NCBI GenBank assembly: GCA_011525625.1
Contig: WYAX01000015.1
Span: 310,001 to 374,000 of the forward strand
Direction of reading: 5' to 3'
DNA: 64,000 bases
Source of the DNA: Nitrospira defluvii
Lineage (GTDB): Bacteria; Nitrospirota; Nitrospiria; Nitrospirales; Nitrospiraceae
The notes beneath the pieces are model-generated. The model was given only the letters and a program-made list of their open reading frames with translations. It did no database searches and was not told the DNA's origin. How positions within the stretch are numbered: the stretch's first letter is position 1; each line of letters begins with the position of its first letter. The translations under genes and the position numbers were made by a program. Of the stretch, positions 35,510 to 55,891 are shown piece by piece.

Positions 35510-35824
35510 CTAATTCTCTTCATGGATGGGGATACGGGTCAGAAACTCGCTCACCTCGGGGCTTGCATATGTTCCGTAGGCATCGACGAAGACCCCTCGA
35601 GTTCCGTCGCGCGCTTCCAGTGCGTAACAGACGGACATGTCGTCCGGGTCCGAGCTTCCTTCGAAACGGTGGTGCTCAACGATCGTCAACTCGTCGGCTC
35701 GAAACGTACGCCTGCTGGTCACGTCGTGAACGAGCCCCGCGGCAAACTCGAAGTTTGCCGTGAACCCACGCTCCTGGAGCCCTTTCACCGCCTCGGTCAT
35801 CGTGCGGTAGGTATGGAAAGCCAT
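35510..35824 (-). CDS. Small protein of the 'phosphoribosylpyrophosphate synthetase-like' type
   Basis: 104 residues. The sequence 'TYRTMTEAVKGLQERGFTANFE', 'EHHRFEGSSDPDDMSVCYAL' and 'RGVFVDAYGTY' matches a small family sometimes mis-named as PRPP synthetase; real function is unknown. The reverse-strand ribosome site AAAGGAG lies just before the ATG at 35824. It overlaps the upstream ZIP gene (35797) by 28 bases. Confidence 0.75.
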   Translation of the reverse strand: MAFHTYRTMTEAVKGLQERGFTANFEFAAGLVHDVTSRRTFRADELTIVEHHRFEGSSDPDDMSVCYALEARDGTRGVFVDAYGTYASPEVSEFLTRIPIHEEN

Positions 35825-36588
35825 GAGATCTCACTCCTTTCATGCGGAAATAGAGCCTGTAGGGCCAAGTAGACCAGGACACTGCCGGCAACGCCTAGTG
35901 CGAAGGATCCCATCCTGCCATATTTTCCGGCCAGTGGGATGAGCTCGAAGGCGGAGACCGTGACCATCGCGCCGGCCGCGAAGGCCATAAAGGACGGATT
36001 GAGCGCGGGGTTCAAATGCACTGCCACCAAGCCGAGCATGGCGCCGACCGGCTCCGCAAGTCCCGAAAGCACCGCCGCTTTGAATAGGAGCGCCCGGTTT
36101 TGGACGGCGACGGCGGGGACCGCCATGGCGAACTCTTCGGGAATATTGTGAATGGCGATCGACAGTGCAACCAGTAGCCCGAGAGACGGCGAAGACAAGA
36201 AGGCGTTGGCCATCGCAAAACCTTCCGGGACGTCGTGCAGGATCAGACCGAACACAATGAGGTAGGCGGCTCGTAGTTCACTGGCCGGCGCTGTCGAGTC
36301 TTTTCCCAGATGGATGTGCGGCATGAGGATATGGAGGGTCAGAATCAGCGCGGCTCCCAGGCCGACCGACAGGCTCGTCGTCCCCGGCCCCACAATCCTC
36401 AAGGCTTCCGGCACCAGTTCGCAGAGCGAAATCAGGACCATGATACCGGTGGAGAATCCGATACCCATCGCGATCATGCGGGGATTCTCGCCAAGAGTTA
36501 TGGCGAGTAAGGCGCCGATGAGCGTCGTGCCACCTGATAGGACGGCAAGAGCGATCACTGAGATGTAGGAGGCAGGGAGTGAGTCCAA
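35797..36588 (-). CDS. ZIP-family metal transporter (ZupT-like)
   Basis: 263 residues with about eight helices, the metal site given by 'IVFGLILHDVPEGFAMANAFL' (HDVPEG) and 'IAIHNIPEEFAMAVP' (HNIPEE), as in ZupT. It starts with TTG at 36588 after GAGGAAGG. It shares a transcript with the small gene 35510. Imports zinc, iron or manganese in the family. Confidence 0.9.
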   Translation of the reverse strand: MDSLPASYISVIALAVLSGGTTLIGALLAITLGENPRMIAMGIGFSTGIMVLISLCELVPEALRIVGPGTTSLSVGLGAALILTLHILMPHIHLGKDSTAPASELRAAYLIVFGLILHDVPEGFAMANAFLSSPSLGLLVALSIAIHNIPEEFAMAVPAVAVQNRALLFKAAVLSGLAEPVGAMLGLVAVHLNPALNPSFMAFAAGAMVTVSAFELIPLAGKYGRMGSFALGVAGSVLVYLALQALFPHERSEISWLSIPTAR

Positions 36589-36750: not shown

Positions 36751-38730
36751 ATGACACGGATTGACGGGAAGGCCCTGCGCGTCGAAGCCTTATTCAAGCG
36801 CTCGGATCAGATGCTTCTCCGCATCAGTCCTCGCGGGGACATCTTTTTGCTGCGGCTTGTTGCGGCACTCATTCCAGTCATGCTTCTGGCCATCGAGGCC
36901 CTGTTTGGCATCCCCTTCTTCTACCAGCTGGCGGTGCCCTTCTATCTGTGGTGCTTGACCCTGTATGCCTACGGCTTGCTGAAATCGCTGATCCTCCAGC
37001 GACAGGTGTCAGCCGAACTGCTGATTGTGCTGGTGATGGCCGTGACGCTGATCGACGGCAAGCCGCTCAGCGGCGCCCTGGTGGCCTGGTTCATCGGGCT
37101 CGGTCTCTACCTCTCCTTCACGATCATCCGCAGGAACCGAGAGAAGATCGAGCGCCTCGTCACACAGACCAACACCACCGCCTTGCTGCACCGCGGCGAT
37201 GCAATCCGGGAAGTTCCGGTCGAAGCGGTCAAGCAGGAGGACCTGTTCATTGTCCCCTCGGGCACGGTGATTCCCGTCGATGGCCATGTGGTCGCAGGAA
37301 GATCTTCGGTCGATGAATCATTTGTCACCGGCGAACCGTTTCCTGTGTACAAAGTCACCGGCGACGAGGTGATCTCTGGGACGCTCAATCTTTCGACTCC
37401 CCTGGAGGTGCGCGCCAGCAAAAACGGCGATGCATCGTTTCTTGCGGTGATCGCAGCGGAAATCAAAGCGAGTCTGCAAACCAAGCCGGCGTTGCAGAAG
37501 AAGGCTGAGACATTTGTCCAATTTCTGCTCCTGGGCGTCAGCGGCTATTCGTTTGTGCTGCTGTTCGTGACAGGGAGTCTGGATGTCATGGCCACCGCCC
37601 TTGCGGTGTTGTGCCCCTGTGCCTGGGCCCTGGCGACACCGACCGTCTTCGCCTCGGGCATCGGGCGCTCGGCACGGCTCAATATTCTGGCACGAGGCGG
37701 GGAGCCGTTGGAGACCCTTCAGTCGGTCAAGACCGTGATTCTCGACAAGACGGGCACCGTCACGATGGCCGAGCCCAAGGTCAGCCGTCTGATTCCGCTT
37801 GCGATCGAGGCGAACGAATTGATTCACATCGCCGCCTCCGTCGAAATCAGATTCAGTCATCCGTTGGCGCGGGCCATCCTGAGTTGTGCCAGGGAGCAAG
37901 GCATCACCCGATTCAAATCCGTGAGCGAGGCAGAAGACCTCCCGGGGCGCGGGGTCAAAGCACGAGTGGAGGGTCACGAGGTGCTGATCGGCAGTCCAGA
38001 AACGCTGCAAGCGCTCGGGCTCCAGCTTCCGGCGATCGAATACAGCGGCCGCGCCATCTGGTTGGCGCTGGACGGGGAAGTCAAAGGGGTCATCGTCGTT
38101 CAGGACGTCGTGCGCGCGGCGATGGAGAACCTGGCTGCGGCCCTCCGCGAGCAGGGTATCGAGCGCGTGATCGTCGCGACCGGCGATCACGAAGAATCCG
38201 AAGCCAAGCGGGTGGCCGACCTCATCGGCGCGGACGAGTATCGCTTCAACTGCAAACCGGAGGACAAGGCTAACCTGGTCAGGCACATGCAATTGCGCGG
38301 CAAGGTCGCCATGGTCGGCGACGGGGTGAACGACGCGCCTGCCTTGGCCGCCGCCGATGTGGGCATCGCCATCGGCGGGCATAGAAACATCGCTCTGGCG
38401 ATCGCCTCGTCCGACATCGTCATCCTGGGTGATGATGCGGGCGATCTTCTCACTCTTCTCAAGATCAGCCGCAAGATGGCGATCGTCATCAGACAAAACT
38501 ACGCCTGGGCCATTTCGTTTAATGCGGTGGGATTGATGCTGGCCACGCTCGGTTTTCTCACCCCCGTGCTCGCAGCCTTCTTGCACCACATCAGCTCCGT
38601 CTTTGTCGTGGCCAATGCAGCGCGGGTCTATGTCGGGCCCAGCATGCCTGCCCGTCTGTTTCAGTGGTTCAGGTCTCGATTGAATTCGAGGCCTCGCTCC
38701 GCGTCGGCGTCGCAGGGCTCGACGATCTGA
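36751..38730 (+). CDS. P1B-type heavy-metal transporting ATPase (CPC type)
   Basis: 659 residues. The conserved membrane motif CPC ('VLCPCAWALATP', near residue 287), phosphorylation DKTGT (D about 332), HPLA (about 370, the P1B 'HP' motif), TGEP (about 195) and GDGVND (about 523) are all present. It lacks the N-terminal CxxC heavy-metal domain typical of CopA. Consistent with export of Cu+, Zn2+ or a related ion. Two ZIP genes lie just before it. Confidence 0.92.
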   Translation: MTRIDGKALRVEALFKRSDQMLLRISPRGDIFLLRLVAALIPVMLLAIEALFGIPFFYQLAVPFYLWCLTLYAYGLLKSLILQRQVSAELLIVLVMAVTLIDGKPLSGALVAWFIGLGLYLSFTIIRRNREKIERLVTQTNTTALLHRGDAIREVPVEAVKQEDLFIVPSGTVIPVDGHVVAGRSSVDESFVTGEPFPVYKVTGDEVISGTLNLSTPLEVRASKNGDASFLAVIAAEIKASLQTKPALQKKAETFVQFLLLGVSGYSFVLLFVTGSLDVMATALAVLCPCAWALATPTVFASGIGRSARLNILARGGEPLETLQSVKTVILDKTGTVTMAEPKVSRLIPLAIEANELIHIAASVEIRFSHPLARAILSCAREQGITRFKSVSEAEDLPGRGVKARVEGHEVLIGSPETLQALGLQLPAIEYSGRAIWLALDGEVKGVIVVQDVVRAAMENLAAALREQGIERVIVATGDHEESEAKRVADLIGADEYRFNCKPEDKANLVRHMQLRGKVAMVGDGVNDAPALAAADVGIAIGGHRNIALAIASSDIVILGDDAGDLLTLLKISRKMAIVIRQNYAWAISFNAVGLMLATLGFLTPVLAAFLHHISSVFVVANAARVYVGPSMPARLFQWFRSRLNSRPRSASASQGSTI

Positions 38731-48931: not shown

Positions 48932-49541
48932 TCCCTGGACGAATCTGACCTGGCACAGGGTCTTGGGCTATCTTGCCGCAGGAAATAGAAGCCACTTCGC
49001 TTCAGATTAAAAGAAGTCGGTCGGTCGGGTTCATTCACACAGAGCTCGGCAGTCGCGTCCTGCCACACCGGGCTCTTGCTGCTGTTGCAAGAATCACCAC
49101 ATGCGGCCACATTCTCTCAACCGGCATCCTATGACGCCTGGTTCGGGCTCCCTCCCTATCGTTGATACACCCTCTCCCAGTTCGTAGGGTTTCTGTTGCA
49201 AGCGTGAGTAGTGAGCGGCATCCGCAGGCCTATCGATACCTGCGGGAGGCAGCGTTTCAGGGGATACGCCACAAGGATCGGTGCGATGTGTACCGTCCGG
49301 TTGTCTCTCCGGATCAGGCTCAAAGATTGCTCCATACATTCCTGCAGTCGCGATGCGGGGTTGTCCCTGGGCGTCACAATGTACCATTCAGGGAAGGGCA
49401 GAACGGCATGTCCGGAATGCGAGTCTAGGGTGGGCGAAACACAGGTCTCCCTGCGGTCGATGATGTTCCGTATGAACGGCGCGGACAGGATCTGTTCGGC
49501 ATAGAGTCACCGTCGGAGCCAGAGGAATGAGAAGGTCTACA
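48932..49541. other. Long intergenic region before the ABC/NosL cluster
   Basis: 610 bases. One plus-strand frame around 49162-49428 has protein-like composition in part ('VVSPDQAQRLLHTFLQSRCG') but no ribosome site and only TTG or GTG starts; it might be a decayed gene. I see no tRNA, palindrome or terminator of note. The promoter of the 49542-55891 operon presumably lies here. Confidence 0.4.
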
Positions 49542-49838
49542 ATGTTTCTGTTCACCATGATGGTGGAAGTCGTCGTGCTCGGTCTCCTCTTAGTCCATGC
49601 CGCTTTCCATGAGGAGTCCGGCCGAGCGACCCTCCGGGAGAAGGCCGCATTGATCGCAAGACTCAAACTGACCGACTTCTGTCTGTTCCCCGAAGCGCGC
49701 TATACGCGGCATCTCTCGCAGGCAGATTTGCATTCCGGGTTCCAGGACCACCCCTTTTCTCTCGAACATTTTCCGTCGGGGTCGTTCACCGCGCCGCCGA
49801 GGGATTTAGGGAGGAGTGTGCATGAGAGCCTGGATTGA
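49542..49838 (+). CDS. Small membrane-anchored protein heading the ABC/NosL operon
   Basis: 98 residues: N-terminal helix (about 1-20, 'MFLFTMMVEVVVLGLLLVHA') and a soluble tail with 'LKLTDFCLFPEARYTRHLSQAD' and a Cys at about residue 47. ATG 49542 follows GAAGG by 6 bases; ATG 49527 has an ill-spaced site. The gene overlaps the permease start by 17 bases. Family not recognised, but its place makes it a likely accessory of the transporter. Confidence 0.7.
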   Translation: MFLFTMMVEVVVLGLLLVHAAFHEESGRATLREKAALIARLKLTDFCLFPEARYTRHLSQADLHSGFQDHPFSLEHFPSGSFTAPPRDLGRSVHESLD

Positions 49839-51083: not shown

Positions 51084-51761
51084 GTGATCGAATTGATGAA
51101 CGTGAGAAAAGTCTTCAACAGCGGGAAACCCAGCGAATTCTCTGCGTTGAACGGGATCGATCTCAGAATCAGCGCGAACCAGGTCACTGTGCTGGTCGGC
51201 CCGAGTGGGTGCGGCAAGACCACGCTCCTCACCATCATCGGCTGTATGGCCAGACCTTCGGCGGGGCGTGTCAGACTCGGCGACCGTGAGATCACCAGTC
51301 TTCCAGAACGCTTTCTGACCGAGATCAGGCGCAGCACCTTCGGCTTCATTTTTCAGCAACCGAATCTGATCAAAGGGCTCAGCGCGCTGGAAAATGTCAT
51401 GTTGCCGGCCTATCCGTTAGGAGGGCGCCGCGCCCTGCTCAAAGACAAGGCCATCCGATCGCTTGACGCTCTGGGGCTGGCCGAAAAGGCCTTGTCGAAA
51501 GTCGAGTGGCTCTCCGGAGGGGAGGCCCAACGAGTGGCCATTGTGCGGGCGTTGATCAACGATCCCTCGGTGGTCATTGCCGATGAACCCACCGCTCATC
51601 TCGATAGGACCTTATCGCATCGATTCCTGGAGATCGTCGAGCGATTCAAGGCGGAAGGGAAGACCGTGTTGATTACCAGTCACGATCCGTTGGTTTATGA
51701 ATCCCGTGTCGTGGATCGCGTGGTCAAACTCAGGGACGGAAGACTCGAGGCAGAGGCATGA
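51084..51761 (+). CDS. LolD-type ABC transporter ATP-binding protein
   Basis: 225 residues: Walker A 'GPSGCGKTTLL' (about 37-47), signature LSGGEAQRVA (about 137-146), Walker B 'SVVIADEPTAHLD' (about 156-168), H-loop 'TSHDP'. It is the ATPase partner of the 49822 permease, which starts two bases before it. The stop overlaps the next gene by ATGA. Confidence 0.9.
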   Translation: MIELMNVRKVFNSGKPSEFSALNGIDLRISANQVTVLVGPSGCGKTTLLTIIGCMARPSAGRVRLGDREITSLPERFLTEIRRSTFGFIFQQPNLIKGLSALENVMLPAYPLGGRRALLKDKAIRSLDALGLAEKALSKVEWLSGGEAQRVAIVRALINDPSVVIADEPTAHLDRTLSHRFLEIVERFKAEGKTVLITSHDPLVYESRVVDRVVKLRDGRLEAEA

Positions 51762-52753
51762 TTCTCCATCCGGCCGTCATCGCCAATGTGGTGGCATCCC
51801 TGATTGTCAGCGGGGCGCTCGTGTATGCGGCCGTGTACGGAATACAGATTCTGAGAAGGTGGGATCTTCAAAGCGGCGATGAATACCAACTCGTGTTGGA
51901 GCGTAGAACATATCTGATCTCGACCATTCTGACCTTTGCCTGCGGGTTGGAATTGATGTCATTGTTCTTGTACGTGTTCACGGCGAACAATCTCTGTCCG
52001 TTGTTCGTCGGTGCGATGTGCGCTGCCGGCACGTTGAATGTCAATCCTTACGGCTACCCTACGCTGGTGCTCAAGATCATCGGCTTTATCTTGGCCGGGC
52101 TCTGGCTTATTCTCAACCACGCCGACAATCAGGCCTACGACTATCCACTTATTAAAAAGAAGTACCTCCTGCTGGCGCTGCTCGTGCCGTTCAGTGTGCT
52201 GGAAACCTCTCTGCAAGGCGCCTTCTTCCTGAATCTAAAAGCCAATGTGATTACCTCCTGCTGCGGCAGTCTCTTCAGCACCGAGCAGGTTAAGGGAGTC
52301 GGATCGGAACTTGCGGCGCTGCCGATCGTCCCGATGATGTGGACCTTCTATTGTGGGATGGGATGCCTGATGGCTTCGGGCATTCATTTCTATCGGAAAG
52401 GCAAAGGCGGCTACGTCTATTCCACCATGACCTTTGTGATGTTCGGGGTGTCCATTGCCTCCATCATCTCGTTTATCTCCATCTACATCTATGAACTGCC
52501 GACCCATCATTGTCCCTTCTGTATCGTAATGGAGGAATATGGCTATATCGGCTACGCGCTGTACATTCCATTGTTTGGGGCGGTCGTGACAGGCATGGGG
52601 ATTGGAGTACTGATGCCGTTCCAAGACATAACGAGTCTCCGCGGGGTGATTCCGGGACTGATAAGAAAACTGACCCTCACGTCACTGACCCTCTATGCGG
52701 CATTCATGGCGATTGTGCTCTACAAGATCGCGACGTCCACGCTCGTACTGTAG
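51758..52753 (+). CDS. Cys-rich polytopic membrane protein of unknown function
   Basis: 331 residues with about eight hydrophobic helices. Cysteines form several pairs: 'NNLCPLFVGAMC' (about residues 77-90), 'ITSCCGSLFS' (about 163-170), 'FYCGMGCL' (about 195-200) and 'THHCPFCIV' (about 249-256). The CPFC motif near a membrane helix recalls thiol-redox proteins such as VKOR or DsbB-like enzymes, or a metal gate. It overlaps the ATPase stop and precedes NosL, so it is coupled to the ABC transporter. No family is recognised with confidence. Confidence 0.75.
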   Translation: MILHPAVIANVVASLIVSGALVYAAVYGIQILRRWDLQSGDEYQLVLERRTYLISTILTFACGLELMSLFLYVFTANNLCPLFVGAMCAAGTLNVNPYGYPTLVLKIIGFILAGLWLILNHADNQAYDYPLIKKKYLLLALLVPFSVLETSLQGAFFLNLKANVITSCCGSLFSTEQVKGVGSELAALPIVPMMWTFYCGMGCLMASGIHFYRKGKGGYVYSTMTFVMFGVSIASIISFISIYIYELPTHHCPFCIVMEEYGYIGYALYIPLFGAVVTGMGIGVLMPFQDITSLRGVIPGLIRKLTLTSLTLYAAFMAIVLYKIATSTLVL

Positions 52754-52772: not shown

Positions 52773-53291
52773 ATGAGACAGAGATTTGCAGTCAGCCGTC
52801 TCGCCGCCTATTCGACCGTTCTGATGATCGGGATTCTGCTGTGCGTGATCGGTATCGCCGATTCATTCGAGCGGGGGCGGAAACCTATGACGAAGAAGGA
52901 TAAATGTCCGGTGTGCGGGATGTTTGTCTACAAATATCCCAAATGGGTGGCGGTCATTGAATTTGCAGACGGCACGTCGTTCTATTACGACGGTGCCAAG
53001 GACATGTTTAAACATTACATGAACGTTCCCAAATATGCGCCCAGCAAAGCGGGTCAGGGCATTGTGTCCCTCTCCGTCACGGATTATTACGCCGTCGCAC
53101 TCATTGATGCCAAAACTGCCTATTACGTAATCGGGAGCGATGTGTATGGCCCCATGGGGCATGAATTGATTCCATTTGAAACCCTGGCATCGGCACAGGA
53201 GTTCTTAGAGGATCACAAGGGCGTACGCATCCTGCAGTTCCCTGAGGTGTCGCAAGAGACGATTCAGGCTTTGGATGCGGCTCAGCAATGA
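52773..53291 (+). CDS. nosL: NosL-like copper chaperone, membrane anchored
   Basis: 172 residues: N-terminal helix (about 11-30), then the NosL domain with 'DKCPVCGMFVYKYPKWVAVIE' (split here at the Cys pair about residues 44-47), 'GTSFYYDGAKDMFK', 'IDAKTAYYVIGSDVYGPMGHELIPF'. NosL binds Cu(I) and helps mature nitrous oxide reductase. No nosZ is in the window, so the client is uncertain. It lacks the usual lipobox. It sits between the membrane protein and a TlpA-like gene. Confidence 0.9.
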   Translation: MRQRFAVSRLAAYSTVLMIGILLCVIGIADSFERGRKPMTKKDKCPVCGMFVYKYPKWVAVIEFADGTSFYYDGAKDMFKHYMNVPKYAPSKAGQGIVSLSVTDYYAVALIDAKTAYYVIGSDVYGPMGHELIPFETLASAQEFLEDHKGVRILQFPEVSQETIQALDAAQQ

Positions 53292-53305
53292 CAAAGGAGT
53301 CTACG

Positions 53306-53803
53306 ATGAGGTGTGTCAAGAACCTGTTGCCCCTACTGCTGTTTCTCCTATTCGTGAGCGGTTGCGCGCGATACGAGTCGTTACATATCGGAGATACCCC
53401 GCCGCAAGTTGTCTTGTCGGACATGCACGGGAAACGCATGACGGTCCCGGGTGATCTGAAAGGCCAGGTCGTCCTCATTCGCTTTTGGTCGGCCACCTGT
53501 CCACGTTGCACCAAAGAAATGATCAATGCCCTCGAGAGTCTGTACCAGAAATACCGGGAAAAGGGTCTGATCGTGCTCTCGGTCAACGTGAATCCGCTCA
53601 ATGAGGTTTCTGACAAGTTTCGTCAAGCCGACAAGGTGTCGTTTTCCGTTCTACTCGATCCTGACTTGTCGGCCGCCAAGCGGTATGGGGCGAAGGTGCT
53701 GCCGACTACGTTCATTTTGGATCGGAATGGCGTCGTCAAAGAAAAGATGCTCGGCGAGACGGGGGTGGAGATGTTTGAACCGCTGGTGAGGGAGTTGTTG
53801 TAG
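53306..53803 (+). CDS. TlpA-like thioredoxin-fold lipoprotein
   Basis: 165 residues: lipobox 'LFVSGC' (Cys about 20), then a thioredoxin fold with active site 'SATCPRCTKE' (CPRC about residues 67-70), and a 'LPTTFILDRNGVVKE' cis-Pro region. It could reduce or donate to disulfides or handle copper in the periplasm, as TlpA, ScoI and PrrC-like proteins do. ATG 53306 follows AAAGGAG; ATG 53288 is an alternative. It is 14 bases after nosL. Confidence 0.9.
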   Translation: MRCVKNLLPLLLFLLFVSGCARYESLHIGDTPPQVVLSDMHGKRMTVPGDLKGQVVLIRFWSATCPRCTKEMINALESLYQKYREKGLIVLSVNVNPLNEVSDKFRQADKVSFSVLLDPDLSAAKRYGAKVLPTTFILDRNGVVKEKMLGETGVEMFEPLVRELL

Positions 53804-53904
53804 CCGATGGCGCAATGGCGCCCGCACAGCGTAGCCCAGCGTGAAGCCGGGAGTATCTGCGGCAGCGCATCGAATTCCTCCTCAGTTTCAGGAGGTGGAT
53901 CGCG

Positions 53905-54291
53905 GTGATCTTTCCTTCATGCGAGCTTGGACCGCAGGGGGCGGTGAGCGTGCCTCACCGGCGCCACAGAGAGGGAGCTCTTCGTGCCCATCTGTGCCCA
54001 GTTGCGGCCAGGACACTCCCCCTTGTCGTAGCGGTGATACTCATTGTTTCTGCAGGAGGCGCGTTCGCCTATGATCTCGGACATCAGTGTTCTCATACAA
54101 TCGGCCTGCACGGCACCGGCATCTGTGCCTGGATGTGTGGAACAGGAGCGGACATTGAAACCGCGCCGACTCCCGTTGTGTCCCATGATGCATGTCAGTG
54201 CGGTGCAAGGCTGCTGAGTGCCGCTGGCCGAATCCAATCCGAGGCAGTTGGGCTGATCCATTCGCGCGCCCCTCCCAATCCGCTCTTCTGA
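53905..54291 (+). CDS. Small exported Cys/His-rich protein
   Basis: 128 residues starting with GTG 53905, 6 bases after GGAGGTGG at 53891-53898. A hydrophobic segment (about 38-54, 'LPLVVAVILIVSAGGAFA') is followed by a Cys/His-rich region: 'GHQCSHTIGLHGTGICAWMCG' (about 58-78) and 'HDACQCG'. It may bind copper. Its position between TlpA-like and NosL-porin genes supports a metal-linked role. Family not recognised. Confidence 0.6.
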   Translation: MIFPSCELGPQGAVSVPHRRHREGALRAHLCPVAARTLPLVVAVILIVSAGGAFAYDLGHQCSHTIGLHGTGICAWMCGTGADIETAPTPVVSHDACQCGARLLSAAGRIQSEAVGLIHSRAPPNPLF

Positions 54292-54475
54292 CATAGCGTC
54301 TATCCGCATCGGAGATCGTCCGCCAGGCCCGCCGTGGGTCTTGTTCGTCGGCTCCAGGGCTGGTGCTGTGGAATGCGGTTCTCCTGCGCATCTTAACTCC
54401 ACGCTCATGTAGGAATGACGGAACGCGGCCGGACGTAGCCCACGCTCAATAAATGGAGCAATAGAAGGCACAGGT

Positions 54476-55891
54476 GTGAAGGTGAAACTGTTCATGAGTA
54501 TGAAGCCCATATGGATGCTTTTTCTGTTATCGGCATGTCTCGCCCCCGCGATCACTTTTGCAGACAATCCGGGGGTGCCTAATGAGGAAGCGATCGGCAC
54601 CGGCGAGCGGGAAGAGTGCAAGGTCTGCGGCATGTACATCGATCAATACCGTCGGAGTTCCGGCGAGCTGGTCCACAAAGATGGAACGAAGGAACATACC
54701 TGCGGCGTGGCCTGCCTGCTCCGCATTTTGGACGATGAGGGGATGGATGCGTTCAGCTCCATCTGGGTGCATGACTGGAAGACGGGAAAACAGTTGGATG
54801 CCCGGGAGGCGACCTATTCGCTTGGAAGCCGGGTGATTCCGGACATGATCCCCAACTTTATTGCCTTTGAAACCGAACAAGCGGCTGAGGCTTTCAAGGC
54901 AGAGAAAGGAGGTGAGGTGGTCACATTCAACCAGGCCATGCAACTCATCACCCCGCGCGGACAAACCGTCCCGTTCCGTCTCCAGACCGCGGTCACAACG
55001 GGCAAAGGATCGTTCGGGATGGGGATGGGGTTCAGCTATCTGCGCAGGGATCGCGTCTTGCTCGGGTCGGATGGGCAGGATCCTGGAGATTTCATCAGAG
55101 GCCGCCCGCAACAGCCACGTGCGCCCAGGAATGCCGTATCGTTCGGGCAATCCATCTTTGTGAACTATGGCATCAGCGACCGGCTGGCTGTGTTGGTGAA
55201 TCAGCCATACTTCGAACGGCAGACCAGTCAGTTCACCAGAAATCTTGCCACTGGTGCGATTACGACTACCGGTGCCGATGCCGCGGGGCTCGGGGATCTC
55301 GATCTGCGGTTTCGTTACAATTTATGGAGGAGCACCATTCAGGACAAATGGGTTACGCTGATCGCCACGACCACTCTCCCCACGGGGAAGTTTAACAAGG
55401 TCGCGATCGACAGTCCTGCGCTGCAGACAGGAACGGGCGCGCCGTCGTTCGGCGGGGGGCTGCTGTTCTCCTACAGTTGGCGCGACCTGTGGATTCATAC
55501 GTCCACTACCTATACAGCCAGGCTCGAGAATCGTGACCGTTATAAATTTGGAAATGAAGCGGCGGCTGGTCTCGCATTCCATTACACTCCCAACTACAAT
55601 CACATGTTCGGAGTAGAACTGGATGTCGCGCATGTCGAAAAGAATGAAAATCTCGGTGCAAAGGTCGGCAATAGCGGGGGCGTGAGAGCCAACGTGAATT
55701 TCGTTGCGGATTGGAGATTCATGAACGCTCTGGGCGGCAATTTTACGCTACGAGCGGCAGTCGGAATGTCGATGTATGAAGACCTCAACCGACAAACCAT
55801 CGGTCAGCGAGATCAGGTTCAGCTTGGCGGAGGCTATTTTGCGAATCTGGCGCTCAACTATGCCACCCGCTTTCCCTTCATTGAGGAGTGA
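54476..55891 (+). CDS. NosL domain fused to an outer-membrane beta-barrel
   Basis: 471 residues. After a signal peptide, residues about 42-170 form a NosL domain: 'EECKVCGMYIDQYRRSS', 'HTCGVACLLRIL', 'VHDWKTGKQLDAREATY'. From about 175 to the end the sequence is an outer-membrane barrel: 'GMGMGFSYLRRD', 'SIFVNYGISDRLAVLVNQPYF', 'GLGDLDLRFRYNLWRS', 'HMFGVELDVAHVEKN' and 'QLGGGYFANLALNYATRF'. A metal chaperone joined to a porin-like barrel is not an arrangement I know. Start GTG 54476 or ATG 54494/54500. It ends the operon begun at 49542. Confidence 0.88.
   Translation: MKVKLFMSMKPIWMLFLLSACLAPAITFADNPGVPNEEAIGTGEREECKVCGMYIDQYRRSSGELVHKDGTKEHTCGVACLLRILDDEGMDAFSSIWVHDWKTGKQLDAREATYSLGSRVIPDMIPNFIAFETEQAAEAFKAEKGGEVVTFNQAMQLITPRGQTVPFRLQTAVTTGKGSFGMGMGFSYLRRDRVLLGSDGQDPGDFIRGRPQQPRAPRNAVSFGQSIFVNYGISDRLAVLVNQPYFERQTSQFTRNLATGAITTTGADAAGLGDLDLRFRYNLWRSTIQDKWVTLIATTTLPTGKFNKVAIDSPALQTGTGAPSFGGGLLFSYSWRDLWIHTSTTYTARLENRDRYKFGNEAAAGLAFHYTPNYNHMFGVELDVAHVEKNENLGAKVGNSGGVRANVNFVADWRFMNALGGNFTLRAAVGMSMYEDLNRQTIGQRDQVQLGGGYFANLALNYATRFPFIEE

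Follow-up and report, generated by a model that had tools for sequence, protein, structure and literature searches.

We describe here a gene at positions 54476-55891 of a 64,000-nt stretch of Nitrospira defluvii DNA (contig WYAX01000015.1, positions 310,001 to 374,000; henceforth 'the window'), in which a NosL domain is joined to an outer-membrane beta-barrel, as a sequence-only reading of the window had proposed. NosL (PF05573) is a chaperone that provides copper for the CuZ site of nitrous oxide reductase. The gene and its parts are as follows.

54476..55891, + strand: NosL-barrel fusion gene, 471 amino acids (aa); begins with GTG, with an ATG at 54494 as the alternative start
54605..54934, + strand: NosL domain with CxxCGM putative Cu(I) motif and HTCGVAC (PF05573, 7og7 fold match)
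54950..55015, + strand: conserved inter-domain junction, TPRGQTVPFRLQTAV (alignment of four relatives)
55001..55873, + strand: COG4313/FapF-type outer-membrane beta-barrel (PF13557; 5o65 and 4rl8 fold matches)

The coordinates, the frame and both Cys motifs (CKVCGMY and HTCGVAC) of the sequence-only reading were confirmed on the sequence, where the gene is a single uninterrupted frame of 471 codons with no frameshift and with GAAGG preceding its GTG start. The Pfam profile for NosL matched residues 44-153 well over its cut-off (64.1 bits versus 24, E 2e-17), and PF13557 (Phenol_MetA_deg) matched residues 260-380 over its cut-off by a narrow margin (24.5 bits versus 22). A sequence search of solved structures matched the N-terminal half to the NosL structures 7osf, 7znq and 7og7. 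In an AlphaFold model computed from an alignment of distant relatives, with the closest ones (at loci L122, L123 and L132/L133, see below) left out, a NosL fold is followed by ~12-13 long beta strands; the mean predicted local distance difference test score (pLDDT) is 68, with values of 80-96 over most of the NosL part and moderate values in the barrel. Comparison of the model, the numbering of which begins four residues into the open reading frame (ORF), with solved structures by Foldseek and VIA-align matched residues 40-154 to NosL 7og7 (Z 15.7, root-mean-square deviation 1.9, 113 residues) and residues 155-460 to FapF (5o65, Z 23.9) and the COG4313 channel Pput2725 (4rl8, Z 23.8) over ~250-260 residues; as modelled, the barrel is of the 12-strand COG4313/FapF fold. 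Both halves of the proposed fusion were thus borne out by the structure prediction and domain search that had been suggested for it, a non-barrel C-terminal half and a frameshift were looked for and neither was seen, and the two-domain architecture is strongly supported. Given its N-terminal position and the COG4313/FapF fold, the NosL domain would lie on the periplasmic side of the outer membrane.

The fusion and its relatives

Two relatives of the fusion are continuous frames in Desulfobacterota-group genomes, the phylum of a Geobacteraceae metagenome-assembled genome (MAG): one at L122 (genome G679; 43% identity) and one at L123 (genome G468; 33% identity), the barrel of which matches PF13557 at 43.4 bits. 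In a Methylococcaceae MAG (G416) the fusion runs off contig L133 and resumes on contig L132 with a 19-residue overlap in which one residue differs, and its two halves are 55 and 45% identical to the window protein. A junction of the form I[ST]PxGxTxPxR is common to all four fusions; looked at as a candidate for the N-terminal lumen plug of COG4313 channels, this segment is of low confidence in the model. The CKVCGM read in the NosL domain of the window fusion is a motif that the relatives also keep in alignment. Residues 18-21 of the window protein read LSAC, which by eye resembles a lipobox; the relatives from Methylococcaceae and at L122 and L123 have none. The C-terminal ends, looked at for an aromatic beta-signal, read YATRF in the last strand and then PFIEE in the window protein, KRRF in L123 and RRFAAF in L122. 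Within the window genome (G000, 4.6 Mb) the only NosL genes are the fusion and an adjoining free NosL, and none of the other 28 genomes of the genus has a NosL. The fusion gene had no match in plasmids or phages and no relatives among viral contigs, and a plasmid or phage origin was rejected on that basis. Among the literature matches listed (subscription literature lay outside the scope), no title or abstract describes a NosL-barrel fusion. The fusion is a new architecture assembled from known parts.

A second family of NosL-barrel frames, of ~470-600 codons, occurs in 12 other Nitrospirota genomes. Further members, from Geobacteraceae, Desulfoarculaceae and other Deltaproteobacteria, came from a scan of species genomes, which in Methylococcaceae gave barrel fragments only. 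Methionine makes up 8.7-10.7% of the barrels of this family versus 1.9% of the window barrel. Strand runs such as TMTMDMHMLMVM place methionine on one face of the strand, and in two of three Met-rich strands that face also has polar residues; since polar residues share it in these two strands, the Met face, judged from residue parity only, probably lines the lumen. A model of a second-family member (pLDDT 83.5) also matches COG4313 and FapF, and unfused members of the barrel family were found in Pelotalea, Geotalea and one Nitrospirota MAG and, more distantly, in Novosphingobium. Grouping of both fused families together was rejected in the NosL tree (approximately unbiased (AU) test, p 0.003) and in the barrel tree (AU p 2.5e-76), values that are rough because the NosL columns are few, the barrel branches long and the rooting by midpoint. 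A single fusion event for both families is therefore disfavoured, and NosL was probably joined to channels on two separate occasions. What the sequence-only reading had taken as one unusual gene is thus a conserved and apparently twice-evolved architecture. CopD (PF05425, L062:5452-6501) and a YtkA-like protein (PF13115, L063:1381-1794) lie near Met-rich fusions as further copper context, and tandem two-NosL proteins also occur in Nitrospirota (L071:701-1774 and L072:2653-3639).

A candidate leader reading frame upstream of the fusion

Directly upstream of the fusion gene lies a small ORF (uORF), which the sequence-only reading had not included.

53890..53895, + strand: ribosome-binding site of the uORF (AGGAGG), 9 nt upstream of the GTG
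53905..54291, + strand: candidate copper-sensing leader ORF (uORF), 128 aa, with a signal-like hydrophobic segment, CAWMC and C-terminal SRAPPNPLF
54221..54340, + strand: C>G stretch (C 39-41%, G 24-25%), candidate Rho-utilisation site, over the RAPP codons and the start of the intergenic region

The uORF stands between a thioredoxin gene and the fusion gene, with a 184-nt gap to the latter, and is laid out as CAWMC, 42 residues, RAPP, 5 residues and stop. The combination of a Cys pair with R[AG]PP 30-60 residues further on and near the stop is unique to the uORF in the 64 kb of the window, where shuffled sequences give 0.025 occurrences per 64 kb. Homologs of the uORF are present in 28 of 29 genomes of the genus. 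A motif scan gave roughly 30 distinct homologs, every one with RAPP or RGPP at its end; the scan required RAPP/RGPP and counts presence, not absence, of the motif, and it recovered nearly all loci retrieved as homologs. A family of ORFs of this kind, small and exported, with C[AS]WMC and either RAPP or RGPP at the end, extends across the genus (L138-L156, L003-L027). At the genus loci, leaders of the RGPP type stand 49-144 nt before free COG4313-like barrels, and leaders of the RAPP type precede other predicted secreted proteins (a conserved 153-aa protein or a ~420-aa protein).

The uORF resembles the CruR and CutF leaders, which are copper-responsive arrest peptides. In Bordetella pertussis CruR, which has CXXC and RAPP, the ribosome stalls without copper and blocks Rho, and copper relieves the stall, upon which transcription of a TonB-dependent transporter gene ends (PMC9426467). 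Within this class no known arrest motif is stronger than RAPP and RGPP (PMC12992588), and for CruR both arrest at RAPP/RGPP and its relief by copper have been established by experiment (PMC9426467, PMC12992588). The window leader is close to CruR in motif spacing (42 versus 45 residues) and in intergenic gap (184 versus 162 nt). The RNA of positions 54240-54510 folds less well than shuffled sequences (z +1.77), and in the absence of excess structure a CutF-style stem-loop over the start site was rejected; a consensus scan found no intrinsic terminator or sigma-70 promoter between the leader and the fusion gene. Because spacing, gap and C>G stretch resemble those of CruR and the RNA of the gap shows no excess of structure, we favour CruR-like control, under which the fusion gene would be expressed when copper is scarce.

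Leaders of another type, L[DN][VI]C with a terminal PP, were found upstream of Met-rich barrels at 16 of 29 loci, at some of them with an intervening gene; none of 580 shuffles gave such a leader. Those before the Nitrospirota Met-rich NosL-barrels end in HPPxx or RPPRV (L059, L060, L062, L065-L070, L075-L078, L094, L095, L097 and L098), and the four L[DN][VI]C leaders that were tested have no Pfam match.

Operon and genome context

The genes upstream of the uORF are, in order:

49527..49838, + strand: small membrane or secreted protein with ARYTRHLSQADL motif, operon head; similar ORFs in L133 and L123
49816..51081, + strand: FtsX-type permease (PF02687), 69% identity to the L133 homolog
51084..51761, + strand: ABC ATPase (PF00005), 75% identity to the L133 homolog
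51758..52753, + strand: multi-spanning membrane protein ('4TM') with CC and HHCPFC motifs, 64% identity to L133 and 36% to L123
52773..53291, + strand: free NosL (CPVCGM), PF05573 at E 1e-30
53288..53803, + strand: TlpA/ResA-like thioredoxin, probable lipoprotein (PF00578; closest NCBIfam model, ResA, below cut-off)

This order, small protein, FtsX, ABC ATPase, membrane protein, NosL, thioredoxin, leader ORF and NosL-barrel, is identical in the Methylococcaceae contig L133 minus the leader ORF, with NosL and thioredoxin 59 and 49% identical between the two; the small protein at the operon head has a clearly similar ORF at the same place in L133, and in L123 an ORF of weaker similarity precedes FtsX. 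Both NosL domains of the window are sisters of their Methylococcaceae counterparts in the NosL tree (support 100/96 for the free NosL of the window and that of L133), and the operon has a GC content of 55% versus ~60-61% in its flanks. Horizontal transfer of the block is therefore likely. The fusion at L123 belongs to a clade II nos cluster, the other members of which include NosZ (TIGR04246, 803 bits), NosD, a NosL-cytochrome c fusion (L123:8659-9411) and a free NosL; the cluster also carries the same FtsX/ABC/membrane-protein module.

The 4TM membrane protein has no Pfam or NCBIfam match; it adjoins the FtsX/ABC pair in every relative read and is possibly the exporter's copper or thiol partner. 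Elsewhere in the window, a candidate ZIP-family metal transporter (35797-36588, - strand) was noted by eye beside a candidate P1B-type metal ATPase (36751-38730, + strand), so that other metal genes probably lie within the same stretch.

Proposed copper entry and its alternatives

We propose that the fusion is most likely a device for copper entry and hand-over, with CruR-like leader control included, a reading to which we assign a probability of roughly 45%. A channel of the COG4313/FapF fold would bear the periplasmic NosL domain at its N terminus in place of a lipid anchor; copper, or a small copper complex, would pass through or dock in the barrel. The CxxCGM site of NosL would pick it up where the barrel opens to the periplasm, and from there it would go to the operon's free NosL and FtsX/ABC/membrane-protein module for the loading of a periplasmic copper enzyme. 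When copper is lacking, the ribosome would stall on the RAPP of the leader, Rho would be kept off and the channel gene would be transcribed; binding of copper to CAWMC would relieve the stall, and transcription would stop before the channel gene. The polarity expected of the leader and the copper-enzyme-assembly partners make capture and hand-over of incoming copper the most likely function, and the gene controlled by CruR encodes an outer-membrane copper importer, which we count in favour. Also in favour are the operon order shared with the Methylococcaceae MAG at 45-75% identity, the relative in a clade II nosZ-nosD cluster, the CxxxC/RAPP leader with homologs across the genus, and the second, Met-rich NosL-barrel family with its frequent Cys/PP leader ORFs. 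A barrel instead of a lipid anchor fits this reading, since NosL is normally a lipoprotein, as the sequence-only reading had stated, that is predicted to reside in the outer membrane and face the periplasm, with CxxCGM as its proposed Cu(I) site (PMC6530538).

Several points weigh against copper entry. COG4313 channels are otherwise tied to hydrophobic compounds (PMC4493636), and the window barrel, at 1.9% Met, is without enrichment in metal ligands, so that nothing in it directly indicates copper. The uORF matches no Pfam family at E 0.1, DUF2946 (PF11162) included, and membership of DUF2946 was rejected for it; in the same search a Novosphingobium leader (L104:3423-3809), which stands before a barrel of the Met-rich type, did match DUF2946. 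CutF of Rhodobacter has the opposite polarity to CruR and acts via a stem-loop (PMC9973294), and the Methylococcaceae operon has an 11-nt gap and no leader ORF before its fusion. As regards a client enzyme, the window genome gave no match to NosZ (PF18764), whereas the same search matched in G468, G138, G119 and G401, nor was there a match to lactonase-type NosZ (L-NosZ); both were rejected as clients in this genome. Ammonia monooxygenase likewise gave no match, in a search without a positive control.

Traffic in the opposite direction, in which NosL would gather periplasmic Cu(I) and pass it out through the barrel as is thought for the N-terminal region of PcoB, is a possibility we regard as unlikely but worth serious attention. 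Copper efflux is the role of PcoB, an outer-membrane barrel that bears a His/Met-rich region at its N terminus (PMC12509749), the second family has Met/His-rich linkers and Met ladders with polar residues, as Cu(I)/Ag(I) relays typically do, and leaders of the CutF type turn detoxification genes on with copper (PMC9973294). Yet the leader geometry is nearer to CruR than to CutF, no Cus/Cop efflux genes are adjacent, and the operon partners (NosL, thioredoxin and an ABC module also found in a nosZ cluster) speak of enzyme assembly. It is rather doubtful that the barrel is mainly an anchor that fixes NosL at the outer membrane for enzyme loading, with little or no passage through it. The predicted lipid tether of free NosL to the outer membrane means that a barrel can substitute for it, COG4313 lumens are plugged by an N-terminal segment (PMC4493636), and the lack of metal-ligand enrichment in the window barrel agrees with such a role; however, the trees favour two separate joins, both to COG4313-like channels and not to any barrel, one family conserves methionine ladders that an anchor does not need, and the possible lipobox of the window gene would make a second anchor superfluous.

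It is improbable that NosL serves a channel for another substrate, for example in redox-coupled export or import of thiols or sulfur, with copper incidental. The operon does encode a thioredoxin and a Cys-rich membrane protein, the 4TM protein of the relatives has CC and CPFC motifs and COG4313 members handle hydrophobic molecules, but the two NosL domains of the operon, the relative in a nosZ cluster and the CxxxC/RAPP leader all indicate copper. An artefact, whether an assembly chimera or a frameshift joining two genes, is very improbable indeed: although the fusion is the only one in its genus and contig ends interrupt the copy in Methylococcaceae, the continuous architecture and the junction recur at L122 and L123 in other genomes, and the window gene lies on a large contig with a genus-typical leader ORF directly upstream. 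Chimera and frameshift were rejected on these continuous, conserved relatives.

Beyond TonB-dependent uptake, little is understood of how copper gets across the outer membrane to enzymes such as nitrous oxide reductase or methane monooxygenase. A chaperone in covalent linkage with a channel, a join apparently made twice in evolution, provides a specific, testable candidate gene for this step, and the leader ORF represents a candidate family of copper-sensing arrest peptides in nearly every genome of a nitrogen-cycle genus. Together, the fusion and its copper-switch-like leader suggest a previously undescribed copper route over the outer membrane. More tentatively than for copper entry as such, we propose that they may define a new class of conduit, namely a folded chaperone on a COG4313-type channel that arose twice, with an arrest-peptide switch outside DUF2946 and a TonB-independent route for copper.

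With known NosL proteins the window protein shares the fold, the CxxCGM motif and the periplasmic chaperone setting, and one fusion relative lies in a nosZ cluster; it differs in being fused to a barrel, in the lack of a lipobox in the fusion relatives and in a genome in which no NosZ was found. Its barrel has the 12-strand fold of the COG4313/PF13557 channels Pput2725 and FapF, whereas the known members bear a short plug or a coiled coil at the N terminus, not a copper chaperone, and have hydrophobic compounds or amyloid chains as substrates. PcoB likewise carries a metal-binding N-terminal region on an outer-membrane barrel (PMC12509749), a likeness by description only; that region is disordered and His/Met-rich, whereas its counterpart here is folded and a putative high-affinity Cu(I) chaperone. 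The operon recalls nosDFYL operons in its ABC transporter, NosL and thioredoxin, and departs from them in its FtsX-type permease, its Cys-containing membrane protein of no known family and, again, the missing NosZ. The leader shares with CruR and CutF a small exported ORF, a Cys pair, RAPP near the C-terminus, a long gap, a C>G stretch and a copper gene downstream; it has CxxxC where CruR has CXXC, does not match DUF2946, and precedes a NosL-barrel gene, a neighbour that the available parts of the CruR and CutF accounts do not mention.
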